Shown here piece by piece: positions 768 through 58,986 of a stretch of DNA of 64,000 bases; position 1 is the stretch's first letter, and every line of letters begins with the position of its first letter. The translations under genes were made by a program, and so were the position numbers. The notes under the pieces are model-generated. The model worked only from the letters and a program-made list of their open reading frames with translations, was not told the origin of the DNA and did not search any database. Origin of the DNA: Terasakiella brassicae (GTDB lineage: Bacteria > Pseudomonadota > Alphaproteobacteria > Rhodospirillales > Terasakiellaceae); NCBI RefSeq assembly GCF_014641495.1, contig NZ_BMHV01000002.1, forward strand, positions 1-64,000, given 5' to 3'.

Positions 768-1727
768 CTAATCGAAGGCATCATCCCAAGTGCCTTGAGT
801 CGCGGCCTTGGAATATTCAGTTGCGCGATTTTCAAAGAAGTTGGCATGTTCCACCGCATTGAGCATGGCATCCAGCCACGGGATCGGATTCTTATCGATA
901 TGATATTGCGGGGTCATGCCCAACTGTTCCAAACGACGGTCCCCGATATACCGGATATATTGCTTCACATCCTCGGCGGTCATACCTTCCACGGCGCCCA
1001 TTTCGAAGCATAAATCAATAAAGGCATCTTCATGGGTGATAATGGTCGCACAGGCCTCATAGAGGCGACGATACAATTCATCACGATCAATCTCGGGATT
1101 CTCTTCCAGAAACGTGCGATAGAGCTTGATGATCGAATTACAGTGCAGCGTTTCATCACGAACCGACCATGTAATGATTTGCCCCATGCCCTTCATCTTG
1201 TTCAAACGCGGGAAATTCAGGAGAATCGCAAAACTGGCAAACAATTGCAGACCTTCTGTAAACGCCCCAAAAACGGCCAGTGTTGTCGCAATGTCAATTT
1301 TAGTTTCAACACCGAATTGCTGCATGTAGTCGTATTTGTCTTTCATTTCCTTATATTGAAGGAAAGCCGCATACTCGGTTTCAGGGATTCCGATGGTATC
1401 AAGCAAATGCGAATAGGCGGCAATATGAATGGTCTCCATATTTGAAAAAGCCGCCAACATCATTTGAACCTCGGTCGGTTGGAACACGCGGGTGTAATGA
1501 CGCATGTAACAGTTATTGACCTCAATATCGCTTTGCGTGAAAAAGCGGAAAATCTGTGTCAGCAGGTGACGTTCGCTTTCCGTCAAGTTCTTGTGCCAGT
1601 CTTTGACATCATCCGCCAGAGGGACTTCTTCAGGCAACCAGTGGACCTGTTGCTGGGTCAACCAGGCTTCATAGCACCACGGATAACGGAACGGCTTATA
1701 AACGGGATTCGCATCCAGAAGGGACAT
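768..1727 (-). CDS. nrdB: Ribonucleoside-diphosphate reductase, beta (radical) subunit
   Basis: Class Ia small subunit, 319 aa. It houses the di-iron centre and tyrosyl radical that start reduction of ribonucleotides to deoxyribonucleotides in the alpha subunit. Visible ligands follow E. coli spacing: D67 (in FFTQSDIEV), then E98-x2-H101 and the radical tyrosine Y105 (METIHIAAY). The second E/H set lies in the helices around residues 190-235. The presence of the tyrosine argues for class Ia rather than the Mn/Fe class Ic. It lies 41 bases after nrdA on the same strand, so the two are almost certainly cotranscribed. The ATG has only a weak AG-rich ribosome site. Confidence 0.95.
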   Translation of the reverse strand: MSLLDANPVYKPFRYPWCYEAWLTQQQVHWLPEEVPLADDVKDWHKNLTESERHLLTQIFRFFTQSDIEVNNCYMRHYTRVFQPTEVQMMLAAFSNMETIHIAAYSHLLDTIGIPETEYAAFLQYKEMKDKYDYMQQFGVETKIDIATTLAVFGAFTEGLQLFASFAILLNFPRLNKMKGMGQIITWSVRDETLHCNSIIKLYRTFLEENPEIDRDELYRRLYEACATIITHEDAFIDLCFEMGAVEGMTAEDVKQYIRYIGDRRLEQLGMTPQYHIDKNPIPWLDAMLNAVEHANFFENRATEYSKAATQGTWDDAFD

Positions 1728-1768
1728 CTTTTCTTTCTTTCACTATACGTTCGTCTCAGCTCAGCGCC

Positions 1769-3634
1769 TTACTGACAAGCCAGACATTCTTCATATTTGT
1801 TTTCATCACTTAAAGGCAGGCGCGGGTTATCCGGCGTTTCCACTTTTTCCAGCAACACGCGCAAACTTTCCGGCACATGATCTTTGGTGGCGACAACCTC
1901 CGCCCGCTGAATGGATTTGGAGCGACAATAATAAAGGCTTTTCAATCCGCGCTTCCAAGCCTGATAGTGCAGTTGATGTAAATCGCGTTTGTGAACATTG
2001 GCAGGCAAGAACAGGTTTACAGACTGGGCCTGATCAATAAATTTCGCCCGGTCCGCCGCCAGATCAACCACCCAAATCTGATCCAGTTCAAAGGAGGTTT
2101 TAAAAATATCTTTTTCATCCTCACTCAGGAAATCAAGATGCTGAACAGAGCCTTCCTGCACTGTAATCGAGGTCCATGTCTCTTCATCATTTTTGCCATA
2201 GCTTTCCAAAACAGCCGCAAGATAAGGGTTACGGACGTTAAAGGAGCCGGACAAGGTTTTATGCATGTAACTGTTGGCGGCAATCGGTTCGATCCCCGGT
2301 GAGGTTCCGCCGCAGATAATCGAAATGGACGCCGTTGGCGCAATCGCTGTTTTGCAGGAGAAACGCGCCTTCATGCCATATTCTGCGGCATCGGGGCAGG
2401 AGCCCCGTTCGTCCGCCAAAACTTCAGAAGCCTCGTCCGCTTTTTTCTGAATATGAGCAAAGATATTACGGTTCCACGCTTTCGCCAGCGCCGATTCAAA
2501 AGGAACGCGATTTTTTTGTAAAAGAGAATGGAACCCCATTACCCCCAACCCAACACTGCGTTCGCGCATCGCTGAATATTTCGCACGCGCCATTTCATCC
2601 GGGGCATTCTGAATAAAATCTTCCAGAACGTTATCAAGGAATCGCATGATATCTTCGATAAAGCGAGGATTGTCTTTCCATGCTTCATAGGTTGCGAGGT
2701 TCAAAGAAGACAGGCAACAAACGGCTGTGCGTTCTTCCCCATGATGATCGATCCCTGTCGGCAAAGTAATTTCAGCGCACAGGTTTGAGGTTTTTACAGT
2801 CAATCCGGCCAGTTTGTGATGTTTCGGCAAGGCCGTATTCACATGGTCGGAATAAATAATATAGGGCTCGCCCGTTTCAATACGAGCCGTCAAAATACGA
2901 ATCCACATGGCGCGCGCCTTAACACTGCGCATCACCGTTCCATCATGTGGGGACAGCAATTTCCAATCTTCATCATTTTCAACCGCACGCATAAATTTAT
3001 CGGACAGGAGAACACCATGATGCAAATTGGGAGTTTTTCGGTTGGGATCCCCCCCGGTCGGGCGGCGAAGTTCGATAAATTCTTCCAGTTCCGGGTGCGT
3101 GTCGGGCAAATAAACCGCTGCGGACCCACGGCGCAAAGACCCCTGAGAAATCGCCAGGGTCATGGAATCCATCACACGAATGAACGGAACCACACCGGAG
3201 GTTTTTCCCACGCGTCCCACCGGTTCGCCGATAGAACGCAAGTTCCCCCAATAAGACCCGATGCCGCCACCTTTGGCAGCCAGCCAGACATTTTCTGTCC
3301 ATAGTCCGACAATACCGTCCAGCGAATCACTTGCTTCATTTAAAAAGCAGGAAATGGGCAAGCCACGGGTTGTTCCACCATTCGATAAAATCGGTGTCGA
3401 GGGCATAAACCACAGACGGCTCATATAATCATAGATACGTTGAGCATGCGCATCATTATCCCCGTATGCTGAGGCCACACGACCAAATAAATCCTGATAG
3501 CTTTCTTCTGGTAACAAATAACGGTCCGCCAAAACCGATTTACCAAATTCGGTCAGATATTGATCGCGGCTGTGATCCACATGAACTTGTGCTCCACCTT
3601 GAACCTGAACCACATCAAGCATACTTGATTCCAC
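1769..3634 (-). CDS. nrdA: Ribonucleoside-diphosphate reductase, alpha (catalytic) subunit
   Basis: Catalytic class I subunit, about 621 aa. Visible sites: the first active-site cysteine in PISCFLNE, the NLCAEI triad (Asn-x-Cys-x-Glu), the second redox cysteine in CCLSSLNL, the YY radical relay near the C-terminus (KSLYYCRS), and a C-terminal CLAC pair that takes electrons from thioredoxin or glutaredoxin. The N-terminal ATP-cone of E. coli NrdA is missing: the catalytic region begins almost at once, so overall-activity control by dATP through that domain is not expected. A GTG at 3634 has GGAGG ten bases upstream and is preferred over the longer in-frame start at 3685. Confidence 0.93.
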   Translation of the reverse strand: MESSMLDVVQVQGGAQVHVDHSRDQYLTEFGKSVLADRYLLPEESYQDLFGRVASAYGDNDAHAQRIYDYMSRLWFMPSTPILSNGGTTRGLPISCFLNEASDSLDGIVGLWTENVWLAAKGGGIGSYWGNLRSIGEPVGRVGKTSGVVPFIRVMDSMTLAISQGSLRRGSAAVYLPDTHPELEEFIELRRPTGGDPNRKTPNLHHGVLLSDKFMRAVENDEDWKLLSPHDGTVMRSVKARAMWIRILTARIETGEPYIIYSDHVNTALPKHHKLAGLTVKTSNLCAEITLPTGIDHHGEERTAVCCLSSLNLATYEAWKDNPRFIEDIMRFLDNVLEDFIQNAPDEMARAKYSAMRERSVGLGVMGFHSLLQKNRVPFESALAKAWNRNIFAHIQKKADEASEVLADERGSCPDAAEYGMKARFSCKTAIAPTASISIICGGTSPGIEPIAANSYMHKTLSGSFNVRNPYLAAVLESYGKNDEETWTSITVQEGSVQHLDFLSEDEKDIFKTSFELDQIWVVDLAADRAKFIDQAQSVNLFLPANVHKRDLHQLHYQAWKRGLKSLYYCRSKSIQRAEVVATKDHVPESLRVLLEKVETPDNPRLPLSDENKYEECLACQ

Positions 3635-49427: not shown

Positions 49428-50963
49428 ATGACCGCACGTATCACCACCGTCACGTTCCAAGGCATCGACGTTATCGAAGTCGAGGTTCAGGTTTCCATTA
49501 CCACCGGCCTTCCCGCCCTCAACATCGTTGGATTGGCGGATAAAGCGGTGTCAGAAGCCCGTGAGCGGGTGCGCGCGGCCCTGAGTGCTTTGGGATTGTC
49601 GCTGCCGCCCAAACGCATCACGGTTAATCTGTCACCTGCCGATCTTGCCAAGGAAGGGTCGCATTTTGATCTCCCCATCGCGCTGGGTTTACTGGCGGCA
49701 ATGGATGTCCTGAATGAAGAAGACCTCAGCCCCTTTATTGTCTTGGGGGAACTGGCATTGGATGGGCGGCTTTCCCCTGTCACCGGTGTTTTACCTGCGG
49801 CCATCCATGCTCAAGTAAAGGATCGCAATATTCTGTGTCCCAACCCCCAAGGCGGTGAAGCGGTTTGGGCGGGGGATCTGGATGTGGTTGCGCCCAACAA
49901 TCTCTTGGAATTGGTCAATCATTTTAAAGGTCGGCAAGTGCTGAGCCGTCCCAAACCTGTTCGCGTTCAAAAACAAGACGGTCCGGCCCATCTGGATTTG
50001 CGCGATATTCGTGGACAGGAAAGTGCCAAGCGTGCCTTGGAAGTTGCCGCAGCCGGAAATCACAACTTGCTGTTTTGCGGTCCCCCCGGTGCCGGAAAAT
50101 CCATGCTGGCCCGCCGCCTGCCCGGTATTTTACCCCCCTTGGATGCGCAAGAAGCCTTGGAAGTTTCCATGATCCATTCCATCGCCGGAACCTTGCCCGA
50201 AGGGGGATTGATGATCCAACGCCCCTTTCGCGACCCACATCATTCGGCTTCCATGCCGGCATTGATCGGCGGTGGCCACCGGGTGCGTCCCGGGGAAGTC
50301 TCCCTCGCCCATCTTGGCATTTTGTTTTTGGATGAATTACCGGAATATAACCGCACCGCCCTTGAGGCCTTGCGACAGCCGCTGGAAAGCGGGCGCGCTG
50401 AAATTGCCCGCGCCAATGCCCATATATCCTATCCTGCGCGCGTCCAATTAATCGCAGCCATGAACCCATGTCGATGCGGTCATCTGGATGATGCGGCGCT
50501 GGCTTGTTCCCGTGCACCAAAATGTGCGGAAAGTTACCGGGATAAAATATCCGGCCCCTTGCTGGATCGCATCGATATTCATCTGGATGTCCCGGCGGTC
50601 AATCCAACCGATTTGCATTTACCACCCCCCCAAGAAGGAACGCTGGACGTGCGCCAGCGCGTGTTACAGGCCCGCACGATACAGAAAGACCGTTATAAGA
50701 ATCACGGCATTCGCACCAATGCGGAAGCCGATGGTGAATTCTTGCTGAAAATCGCCACACCGGACAAAGCCGGACAAAATCTGTTATTGGAAGCCACAAA
50801 AAAACTGCGTCTTTCTGCACGCGGGTATCATCGGGTTTTACGGGTCGCGCGTACCTTGGCCGACTTATCCGGCAGTGATCAGGTTCAGGTTGAACATATC
50901 GGGGAAAGTCTGTCTTATCGGCCCAACATGACCCGCAAAAAGAACACGGCTCAGTTGCCATAA
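49428..50963 (+). CDS. comM: ComM/YifB-type AAA+ helicase (Mg-chelatase-like)
   Basis: A 511-aa MCM-like AAA+ ATPase. N-terminal Lon-protease-like region (residues about 1-165), Walker A GPPGAGKSMLARRL (about residue 222), HSASMPALIGGG insert, Walker B FLDELPE, a zinc-like CRCG...C pattern and an arginine-finger helix region. ComM promotes branch migration in natural transformation; YifB is its broad family name. The start follows GAGGG (contributed by the palindromic repeat) by seven bases. Confidence 0.9.
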   Translation: MTARITTVTFQGIDVIEVEVQVSITTGLPALNIVGLADKAVSEARERVRAALSALGLSLPPKRITVNLSPADLAKEGSHFDLPIALGLLAAMDVLNEEDLSPFIVLGELALDGRLSPVTGVLPAAIHAQVKDRNILCPNPQGGEAVWAGDLDVVAPNNLLELVNHFKGRQVLSRPKPVRVQKQDGPAHLDLRDIRGQESAKRALEVAAAGNHNLLFCGPPGAGKSMLARRLPGILPPLDAQEALEVSMIHSIAGTLPEGGLMIQRPFRDPHHSASMPALIGGGHRVRPGEVSLAHLGILFLDELPEYNRTALEALRQPLESGRAEIARANAHISYPARVQLIAAMNPCRCGHLDDAALACSRAPKCAESYRDKISGPLLDRIDIHLDVPAVNPTDLHLPPPQEGTLDVRQRVLQARTIQKDRYKNHGIRTNAEADGEFLLKIATPDKAGQNLLLEATKKLRLSARGYHRVLRVARTLADLSGSDQVQVEHIGESLSYRPNMTRKKNTAQLP

Positions 50964-50969
50964 AAAAAA

Positions 50970-51173
50970 GCCCGCATGAAAACGGCCTCAGGCTGCTGAC
51001 AAAGTGTTTTAGTAAATAATTGTCCAAAAGCCATCACCCCGCACTTGATACAGGATCCATTTAAAATGAATAGGTTAAACGTTACTCATTGAGCAAAGAT
51101 GGATCCCCGATCAGGGTCGGGGATGACAGTTTAGGGGCTTTGTCGATAATCCGAGGCCGCATGAAAGCGGCCT
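50970..51173. mobile_element. MITE-like non-autonomous element, copy A, with flanking direct repeats
   Basis: The element spans about 50989-51155 (167 bp), in the comM/rhlE convergent gap. Its ends carry inverted TGACAAAG (50997-51004) and CTTTGTC (51138-51144) within longer semi-conserved tips. Inside are two GTCATCC/GGATCC palindromic arms. It matches, in reverse orientation, a copy near asd with about 15 differences over roughly 160 bases by eye. It is bracketed by CCGCATGAAA(A/G)CGGCCT, one mismatch in 17 (50972-50988 and 51157-51173). This pair is itself a terminator hairpin; the left copy keeps the A-run and the right copy the T-run of what looks like a split bidirectional terminator. 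No transposase ORF. Confidence 0.72.
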
Positions 51174-51193
51174 TTTCAAATATATTTTAATGC

Positions 51194-52600
51194 TTAAGCG
51201 GCGCGACGACCTGCAATATTCGGTGTCTTGCGTTGGACTTTTTTCGGTCCGCGCTTTTTAAATCCACCTTCGGTTTTTTTCTTGAAACCACCATCGGATT
51301 TCTTTTTAAAGCCACCTTCCGTCTTTTTCTTAAAGCCGTCTTCCGCTTTTTTCGGGCCTTTGGCAAAGGTGCGTTTTTTACCTGTACCACCACCACCGAA
51401 GCGACGGCGTTTTTGATCGCCGTTTGCCTTAAACGGAATTGGGTCCTGATGATAAGGATGTTCGGATTCAACATCAACGCGTTGCTGAATGGTGCGTTCA
51501 ATGGCTTGCAACAGATCGCCTTCACCATCGGTACAGAAAGACAGGGCAACACCGCTTTGACCGGCACGACCTGTACGACCGATACGGTGGACATAAGCAT
51601 CGCCTTCCAACGGCATATCATAGTTAATGACGTGCGAAATATCGGCAACATCAATACCGCGTGCCGCGACATCGGTCGCCACCAACAATTCGATATCACC
51701 ATTACGGAAGGCGCGCAGAACACGTTGACGTGCAGCCTGTTGACGATCCCCATGAATGGTATCGGTTTTATGACCGCGTTCTTTCAGGTTATCACACAAA
51801 CGGTCTGCCATCGCTTTTGTACGTGTAAAGATCAGCACTTTTTTCAAAGTCGGATCATCCAGCAGATGATCCAGCAATTTCGGCTTGTCTTTCTGTTTCA
51901 TGTGCATGACACGGTGATCAATTGTGTTGGCGACAGAATTTTCACGTGCGGCTTCGACCATTTTCGGTGAAACCAGAACACCGCTTGCCAAGCCGCGAAC
52001 CTGTTTAGACATGGTCGCCGAAAACATAACGGTTTGTTTTTCTGCCGGCATGGAGGCCGCGACTTTTCGGACATCGTGGATAAAGCCCATATCAAGCATA
52101 CGGTCAGCTTCGTCCAAAATGAAGGTATGAACATCATCACATTTAATGGAACCGCGTTCCATATGGTCCATCAACCGGCCCGGTGTCGCCACAACAATGT
52201 GGACACCACGTTGCAATTGTTGCAATTGCTGGCGATAGGGGGAACCGCCATAAATAACCGTATGGAAAACTTTTTGGCCTTTGGTAAAGGAGCGAATTGC
52301 CACCCCTATCTGTTGGGCCAGTTCCCGTGTCGGCGCCAAAATAATACAGCGCGGTTTTCCAGCGGCTGTTTTTTCGTTTTCTGCCAACAGGCGATGAACC
52401 AAAGGCAGCACAAAGGCCGCTGTTTTACCGCCGCCTGTTTGAGCAACACCCATCAGATCGTGGCCGTTCATCAAATGCGGAATAGCTTTATCTTGAATAT
52501 GTGTCGGCGTATCGAAGCCTTGTTTGGCAATAGCGTCGAGCAAAGGTTGGGCAAGGCCCAACATATCAAATGTGGTCACAGTTTTACGTTCCTGTATCAT
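51194..52600 (-). CDS. DEAD-box RNA helicase, RhlE-type
   Basis: A 468-aa helicase. Motifs: Q-motif region GFDTPTHIQDKAIP, AQTGGGKTAAF (I), PTRELA (Ia), TPGRLMDH (Ib), DEAD (II), SAT (III), GIDVADISHVINYD (V) and HRIGRTGRAG (VI). It unwinds short RNA duplexes, as in ribosome assembly or RNA decay. The C-terminal ~80 residues are a basic low-complexity tail with four copies of [ED]GGFKKK[TS], probably an RNA-binding extension. ATG 52600 is chosen from the RhlE start FDMLGLAQPLLDAI; upstream in-frame sequence to 52690 is unlikely to be coding. Confidence 0.92.
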   Translation of the reverse strand: MIQERKTVTTFDMLGLAQPLLDAIAKQGFDTPTHIQDKAIPHLMNGHDLMGVAQTGGGKTAAFVLPLVHRLLAENEKTAAGKPRCIILAPTRELAQQIGVAIRSFTKGQKVFHTVIYGGSPYRQQLQQLQRGVHIVVATPGRLMDHMERGSIKCDDVHTFILDEADRMLDMGFIHDVRKVAASMPAEKQTVMFSATMSKQVRGLASGVLVSPKMVEAARENSVANTIDHRVMHMKQKDKPKLLDHLLDDPTLKKVLIFTRTKAMADRLCDNLKERGHKTDTIHGDRQQAARQRVLRAFRNGDIELLVATDVAARGIDVADISHVINYDMPLEGDAYVHRIGRTGRAGQSGVALSFCTDGEGDLLQAIERTIQQRVDVESEHPYHQDPIPFKANGDQKRRRFGGGGTGKKRTFAKGPKKAEDGFKKKTEGGFKKKSDGGFKKKTEGGFKKRGPKKVQRKTPNIAGRRAA

Positions 52601-52746
52601 CTGCGGTTTCGTCACCCTAAAATGCGTCCTGGTGACATCTAAAATTCCGCACATGATGCCCAGATCGGGGCAAGGGAACGCGACCGGCACCGCTTAAAAG
52701 CGATACTCCTGCTGCACACAGGACTGACAGATTTCTGCCACGGGCA

Positions 52747-58742: not shown

Positions 58743-58986
58743 CGCTTTTAAGATAAAAGCTCAGATTATTGACAAAGCCCCTAAACTGTCATCCCCGACC
58801 CTGATCGGGGATCCATCTTTGTCCAATGAGTAACATCTAATCCATTGATTTTAAATGGATCCCGCATCAAGTGCAGGATGACGGCTTTTGGTCAATTATT
58901 TACTGAAAACACTTTGTCAGCAGTCTGAACCCCCACCAAAAATGATGGGGGTTGTCAGCCGTCTGCGCTTTTAAGATATAAGCTTA
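58743..58986. mobile_element. MITE-like non-autonomous element, copy B, with flanking direct repeats
   Basis: The core at 58760-58927 is the same element as at 50989-51155 in the opposite orientation, about 90% identical by eye; the 46 bases nearest one end are identical. TGACAAAG (58770-58777) and CTTTGTCA (58912-58919) are perfect inverted tips. Right of it lies a CCCCCA/TGGGGG hairpin and a second copy of the tip TTGTCAG[AC/CC]GTCTG-type sequence (13 of 14). CGCTTTTAAGATA[A/T]AAGCT[C/T]A occurs at 58743-58763 and 58966-58986 (19 of 21). The right copy overlaps the asd stop codon. No ORF inside. Confidence 0.7.

Follow-up and report, generated by a model that had tools for sequence, protein, structure and literature searches.

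In the genome of Terasakiella brassicae a short element lies between the stop codons of two convergent genes, a comM/yifB-type gene and a DEAD-box helicase gene, and is bracketed by two hairpins of nearly the same sequence. The locus thereby raises the question what kind of element this is and how it came to stand between two copies of one hairpin, i.e. whether the hairpins were brought along by the element, were contributed separately by the two genes, or originate from a single terminator that was copied upon insertion. The comparison of copies, relatives and empty and filled sites presented here makes it very probable, in our view, that the element is a non-autonomous MITE of the ISBspe1-like clade of the IS1182 family, and that a transposase acting in trans takes a terminator hairpin as its target and duplicates it whole. 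The window, as the term is used here, is the complete stretch of 64,000 nucleotides that was analysed; the features discussed are collected in Table 1.

The element and its flanks

The element, referred to as copy A, measures 165 bp rather than the 167 bp proposed in the first-pass annotation, and its predicted fold is one long imperfect hairpin (z -3.66). The tips given in that annotation, TGACAAAG and CTTTGTC, are real sequences but not the ends, as the true tips lie outside of them. Comparison of the copies puts the ends of the element at CAG...CTG and assigns the outer A.T pair to the duplicated hairpin; with this pair included the flanking direct repeat is 20 nt long, instead of the 17 bp reported before, and 90% identical (18/20). 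Each flank had been described as a hairpin, which holds without reserve for the right one, whereas the left one has decayed at two mismatched positions. The A-run at the left flank and the T-run at the right flank are present as described. A simple terminator scan flagged neither of the two hairpins around copy A. An Rfam search of the element yielded nothing above threshold, the sole match being Trp_leader below its gathering score, and the element thus has no family match that would identify it as a known structured RNA or a group II intron.

The neighbouring genes had been named comM and rhlE. The first name agrees with a TIGR00368 match above the cut-off, and the 3' end of this gene lies at the terminator; the second is less secure, since the best models for the helicase, CshA (425 bits) and RhlE (403 bits), both score below their own cut-off. 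In the helicase gene, imperfect 24-bp tandem repeats (51254-51349) code for a tail rich in lysine and glycine.

Table 1. Features of the window around the two MITE copies
Feature	Position	Strand	Remarks
comM/yifB-type Mg-chelatase-like ATPase gene	49428..50963	+	TIGR00368, 549 bits, cut-off 362
A-run outside left hairpin	50962..50968	.	T-run for the leftward gene; read from the sequence
Left target copy: terminator hairpin AGCCCGCATGAAAACGGCCT	50969..50988	.	partly decayed
MITE copy A	50989..51153	+	165 bp, ISBspe1-type IS1182-family ends, no transposase
MITE left terminal repeat CAGGCTGCTGACAAAG	50989..51004	+	family consensus CAGACTGCTGACAAAG
MITE interior palindrome 1	51032..51059	.	GTCATCCCGCACTTGATGCGGGATCC in consensus
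MITE interior palindrome 2 GGATCCCCGATCAGGGTCGGGGATGACA	51100..51128	.
MITE right terminal repeat CTTTGTCGATAATCCG	51138..51153	-
Right target copy: terminator hairpin AGGCCGCATGAAAGCGGCCT	51154..51173	.	perfect 7-bp stem
Short T-run	51173..51176	+	at and beyond the foot of the right hairpin
DEAD-box RNA helicase gene (rhlE of the first-pass annotation)	51194..52690	-	convergent, 3' end at terminator
MITE copy B	58762..58927	-	two flanking hairpins differ in sequence

Copies of the element in the same genome

The element is repetitive, as had been suspected: a DNA search of its own genome returned 33 matches, of which 30 loci were read, and the copies, whole or partial, number about 30. Of these, 16 can be read at both ends (14 recovered from the 30 loci by a simple end search, plus L005 and L022), the remaining copies being cut or too decayed for their flanks to be judged. 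The hairpin is duplicated in 13 of the 16, namely in 12 of the 14 end-search copies, which are flanked by two copies of one hairpin, and in L005, the right tip of which is shortened; in L003, L008 and L022 no hairpin duplication was seen. The duplicating copies typically have an A-run outside the left hairpin and a T-run outside the right one. Co-variation of the inner hairpin arms could be discerned by eye in L002 and L091; the other copies are without it.

The score of the left flank against the right ranges from 13 to 21 in the 12 duplicating copies and is 5 and 8 in the other two, and 182 control pairings of flanks across different copies of the same genome average 5.8 and do not exceed 10. 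The sequence of the hairpin differs from site to site. Since the hairpin is thus specific to the site and the flank scores lie above those of the controls, the hairpin is the target and not a part of the element. That the element would carry its own terminators may be suggested by the presence of hairpins on both sides of most well-preserved copies, yet is exceedingly improbable in view of the fact that the hairpins vary while the element itself is conserved, its columns being on average 92% identical when 12 copies are aligned, and that empty sites in E. coli (see below) hold one hairpin of the same sequence.

The first-pass annotation had itself named the alternative that two unrelated terminators of convergent genes happen to flank the element. 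The genes indeed converge at copy A, and the hairpins beside copy B differ, one being AACCCCCACCAAAAATGATGGGGGTT and the other the weak GCTTTTAAGATAAAAGC; copy B is perhaps the product of a recombination between copies. Coincidence is nevertheless hardly credible as the general explanation, given the 18 shared positions at copy A, the near-identical flanks at most other sites, including 18 perfect pairs among 32 usable ones (see below), and the gap between the duplicating copies and the mismatched pairings of the own genome.

Relatives with the same ends in other genomes

A search of the genome contigs for the exact 19-mer TCAGACTGCTGACAAAGTG gave 55 stretches, 41 of which are titled Clostridium, often near contig ends; the others include Ectorhizobium, Methylocystis, Rouxiella, Escherichia, Salmonella, Enterobacter and MAGs, and some matches, situated in coding sequence, look like chance (L083, L086, L093, L095). 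A stem with its 3' end at most 1 nt from the tip accompanies 38 of the 54 distinct flanks of these stretches (shuffled control 1%). The corresponding counts are 11 of 12 for flanks from four further genomes, 8 of 17 for the genome of the window and 6 of 15 for Escherichia G385, with shuffled controls at 1-3% over all four flank sets. On a Clostridia contig the tip precedes a transposase of the IS1182 family (473 bits, cut-off 270). Within the class, a 17-mer pattern search of 289 genomes found the pattern in five, the own genome included, with zero control matches; in three (G193, G354 and G327) an IS1182-type transposase frame starts directly beside the 17-mer, and in G291 the 17-mer occurs without a hairpin. 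Ends of the type CAGACTGCTGACAAAG / CTTTGTCA..A..CTG are common to the MITE and to the IS1182 copies of G193, G354, G327, G002, G164 and the plasmids discussed below.

Two side observations were made on these contigs. In Ectorhizobium (L070), MAG87 (L044) and Methylocystis (L059) the same tips enclose different interior palindromes, which resemble common host repeats, and tips of the IS1182 type may quite generally serve to carry repeats of this kind. The Clostridia contig L045 holds two different IS1182-family transposases side by side (153-1637 and 1700-3289).

Hairpin duplication by autonomous IS1182 elements

The search for an autonomous relative with the same ends, as proposed in the first-pass annotation, was successful in several genera, where such ISBspe1-type copies were found. 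Complete autonomous copies lie between perfect whole-hairpin repeats of 18-25 bp in Rhizobium, Sphingobium, Aminobacter, Vibrio, Salinivibrio, Klebsiella and Alkalihalophilus. The closed genome G164 contains five copies of a 1,489-bp IS1182 element, three of them between perfect hairpin repeats (18, 23 and 20 bp including the outer A.T pair); L177 stands between two different hairpins, and no clear reading was obtained for L178. Twelve plasmid copies, chosen among the matches listed, were read, and 10 of these have perfect 18-25-bp whole-hairpin repeats; the two others, which have other ends, show no duplication. Three more copies from enterobacteria were read: one lies between perfect 20-bp hairpin repeats, and those of Salmonella and Providencia have a left hairpin only. 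In a tree of 22 transposases, in which some outgroup branches are long, the 12 duplicating ones make up one side of a branch with support 88/98, and none of 500 shuffles was as low.

The length of the duplication could be compared with that of the hairpin at 35 sites chosen for a visible hairpin repeat (a sample that leaves out L003, L008, L022, L177 and L178 as well as the non-duplicating copies), of which 32 pass the thresholds of 14 nt and 80% identity. The repeat is perfect at 18 of these 32 usable sites and ranges from 18 to 28 bp. Its length equals that of the palindrome at 23 sites and is within 1 nt of it at 27; the correlation is high (r = 0.86) and was matched in none of 10,000 permutations. 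When flanks are mismatched over the sites of this sample, only 4 of 1,190 pairings score as high as the lowest true pair, which has 10, and the best of the 4 has 18. That duplication length follows hairpin length constitutes a clean natural rule, in which the transposase seems to recognise the structure of the DNA and not its sequence.

The putative partner transposase and the congeneric genomes

No IS1182-family transposase above the cut-off was detected in the own genome, and for that reason the mobilisation of the MITE is something we infer: it would have been moved in trans by a partner that has since decayed there. A congeneric genome (G002) carries an autonomous IS1182 element in multiple copies and fragments, seven tips of which (all in G002, five of one end and two of the other, read in 12 stretches from G002, G001 and G004) adjoin seven different hairpins. 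The own genome retains a decayed 92-bp 5' end of this IS (C50:7206-7297, 82/92 identical) that includes the first transposase codons. The MITE is probably stranded in its own genome, unless the partner is missing from the draft.

An empty site with one intact terminator, which the annotation had proposed to look for in a related strain, was found in none of the five congeneric genomes: in G002 and G004 comM and rhlE are not neighbours, in G003 the contig ends, and G001 and G005 have short spacers without the hairpin of copy A. An empty site lacking the hairpin had been put forward as evidence against the insertion, and taken literally G001 and G005 present that case; their spacers say little, however, because these genomes are about 73% identical to the window at this site and the short spacer has turned over.

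An IS982-like element was considered as partner of the MITE and rejected, since its own ends (AACGTCAATTCGGG...) and its own sites differ. Its sequence directly adjoins a MITE tip on contigs C19 and C38, which is what could make it appear as the mobiliser; that role is extremely unlikely, as a complete copy on C25 has these different ends and no hairpin repeats at its edges, and as the element interrupts the MITE. Two MITE copies are interrupted (G000:C19:1-352, L099, and C38:1-339, L104), both at the same point, after TTTTCAGTAAATAA. In two further MITE copies, situated at two contig ends (L026, 1-188, and L027, 1501-1630), the end of a reading frame (..RKLIVIINAKIRDEVFAQES) is located at the first interior palindrome. 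This frame is presumably IS110-like, and the IS110-like element, likewise considered as partner, looks like an interrupter in both.

Empty and filled sites in Escherichia

Clean pairs of empty and filled sites were found in Escherichia. At pitA, the E. coli strains 00-3076 and S2 hold one hairpin, AGCGGGTCAGTTTACTGGCCCGCT, and in MG1655 two copies of this hairpin enclose a BIME-bearing element, the left copy having lost 4 nt of its loop. Among the 5,375 genomes that gave any match, 1,935 cover at least 80% of the pitA query; among the 12 matches listed, from which the sequences of 00-3076 and S2 were read, four are of full length, seven are about 173 bp shorter and one comes from a plasmid-sized record, where the short match is unrelated. 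The site is therefore polymorphic, i.e. filled or empty, within E. coli. At yfbU, Escherichia sp. MOD1-EC7003 is filled and has a perfect 22-bp duplication, E. coli TUM22153 has a single hairpin, and 11 of the 12 matches listed are about 175 bp shorter than the query. At fur, MOD1-EC7003 is again filled, and a single hairpin is present in each of MG1655, 510016 and EC31.

Together with the independent sites and the autonomous relatives with the same ends, these pairs bear out the proposal of the first-pass annotation that the element inserted into a terminator and duplicated the whole stem. Its observation of an element with a flanking repeat is confirmed, and its reading is supported as largely right.

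Comparison with known systems

Two papers on IS1272 and TnSha1, staphylococcal elements of the IS1182 family, describe targeting of hairpins, many of them terminators, without a preference for primary sequence (PMC4923244, PMC5678879); they also quote Siguier et al. (2015) for the targeting of palindromes by some IS1182 members. Furi et al. (PMC4923244) report deletion of the hairpin by TnSha1, and Wan et al. (PMC5678879) favour a replacement pathway for IS1272, with duplication drawn as a possible alternative, pathway b. The clade of the window element has in common with these elements the transposase family and the hairpin targets. It differs in the outcome: IS1272 deletes or replaces the stem-loop without duplication, whereas the family studied here duplicates it as a whole, so that of the two IS1272-type traits targeting of hairpins is present and loss of the stem-loop without duplication is not.

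The kinship with IS1272, a member of the same family that targets hairpins (PMC4923244, PMC5678879), does give some ground for a scenario in which the hairpin is replaced and a second one is regained later via recombination or conversion. We regard this as very unlikely, because perfect duplications occur at autonomous copies in several genera, because the A-run is on one side and the T-run on the other, and because in the E. coli pitA pair one extra hairpin is gained together with the element. Rather than replacement, duplication appears to be the usual outcome in the ISBspe1-like clade, and the clade would thus employ pathway b in nature. Replacement and duplication can now be compared within one family.

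The ISBspe1-type IS shares with the window element ends of the same kind, the same target and the same hairpin duplication, the difference being that the IS carries a transposase and the window element does not. The element is accordingly a MITE, as the first-pass annotation had it: it is short, multi-copy and foldback, lacks a transposase, has its ends in common with autonomous IS1182-family relatives and shows their target and duplication. The MITEs Correia, RUP and QMITE are likewise short, non-coding, multi-copy and foldback, with terminal inverted repeats; such MITEs make short duplications such as TA. The window element may be described as a MITE that is new within a known IS family and that has an unexpected connection with BIME-1. 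The literature searched, which covers few subscription papers and was consulted in passages, describes neither whole-hairpin duplication as a rule nor the occurrence of BIMEs within such elements; ISfinder or TnPedia may list such duplications.

A model for the insertion

In the mechanism that we propose, the transposase, supplied in trans, would select the hairpin of an intrinsic terminator, which it may encounter as an extruded cruciform, i.e. a four-way junction. Attack at the 5' feet of the hairpin would join the two element ends at its opposite feet, and gap repair would then leave the whole hairpin copied on both sides of the element. A DDE transposase normally makes a fixed stagger. The geometry of such a cruciform would be the same whether the stem is long or short, and a stagger that varies between 18-28 bp in step with the length of the hairpin could be understood in this way. 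After the insertion each neighbouring gene should still meet a hairpin and then, beyond the element, its own T-run, and the insertion should therefore be nearly neutral. This suggests a way for an element to multiply in gene-dense genomes with little harm.

A possible connection with BIME-1

BIME-1, the paired REP of the Enterobacteriaceae, resembles the window element in that in Escherichia several are enclosed in elements with the same tips, three of them with hairpin duplication. The interior palindromes of the window element, by inspection, are not E. coli REP sequences; it does not consist of two inverted REPs of the E. coli type and is thus not itself a BIME-1. In five 50-kb stretches of MG1655 the pattern used recovered six paired REPs, three with a left tip (at most 2 mismatches) and one with a right tip. 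Four BIME-bearing copies in the Escherichia genome G385 (L221, L222, L223 and L227) have no second hairpin, some having a left hairpin only. A connection between IS1182-type ends and BIME-1 is a strong lead from a small sample that is no census. It seems slightly favoured by these data that a large share of the BIME-1 of Escherichia and its relatives are, or descend from, terminator-duplicating MITEs of the IS1182 clade. If so, BIME-1 would owe its spread to a DDE transposase able to read the cruciforms of terminators, in addition to the REP-associated tyrosine transposases. The findings also hint at where some of the enterobacterial BIMEs may have come from. A separate arrangement was seen in G385 (C35:25233-26051; L214 and L216-L220), where six tandem units of 160 bp each begin with an IS1182-type tip and contain REP sequences.
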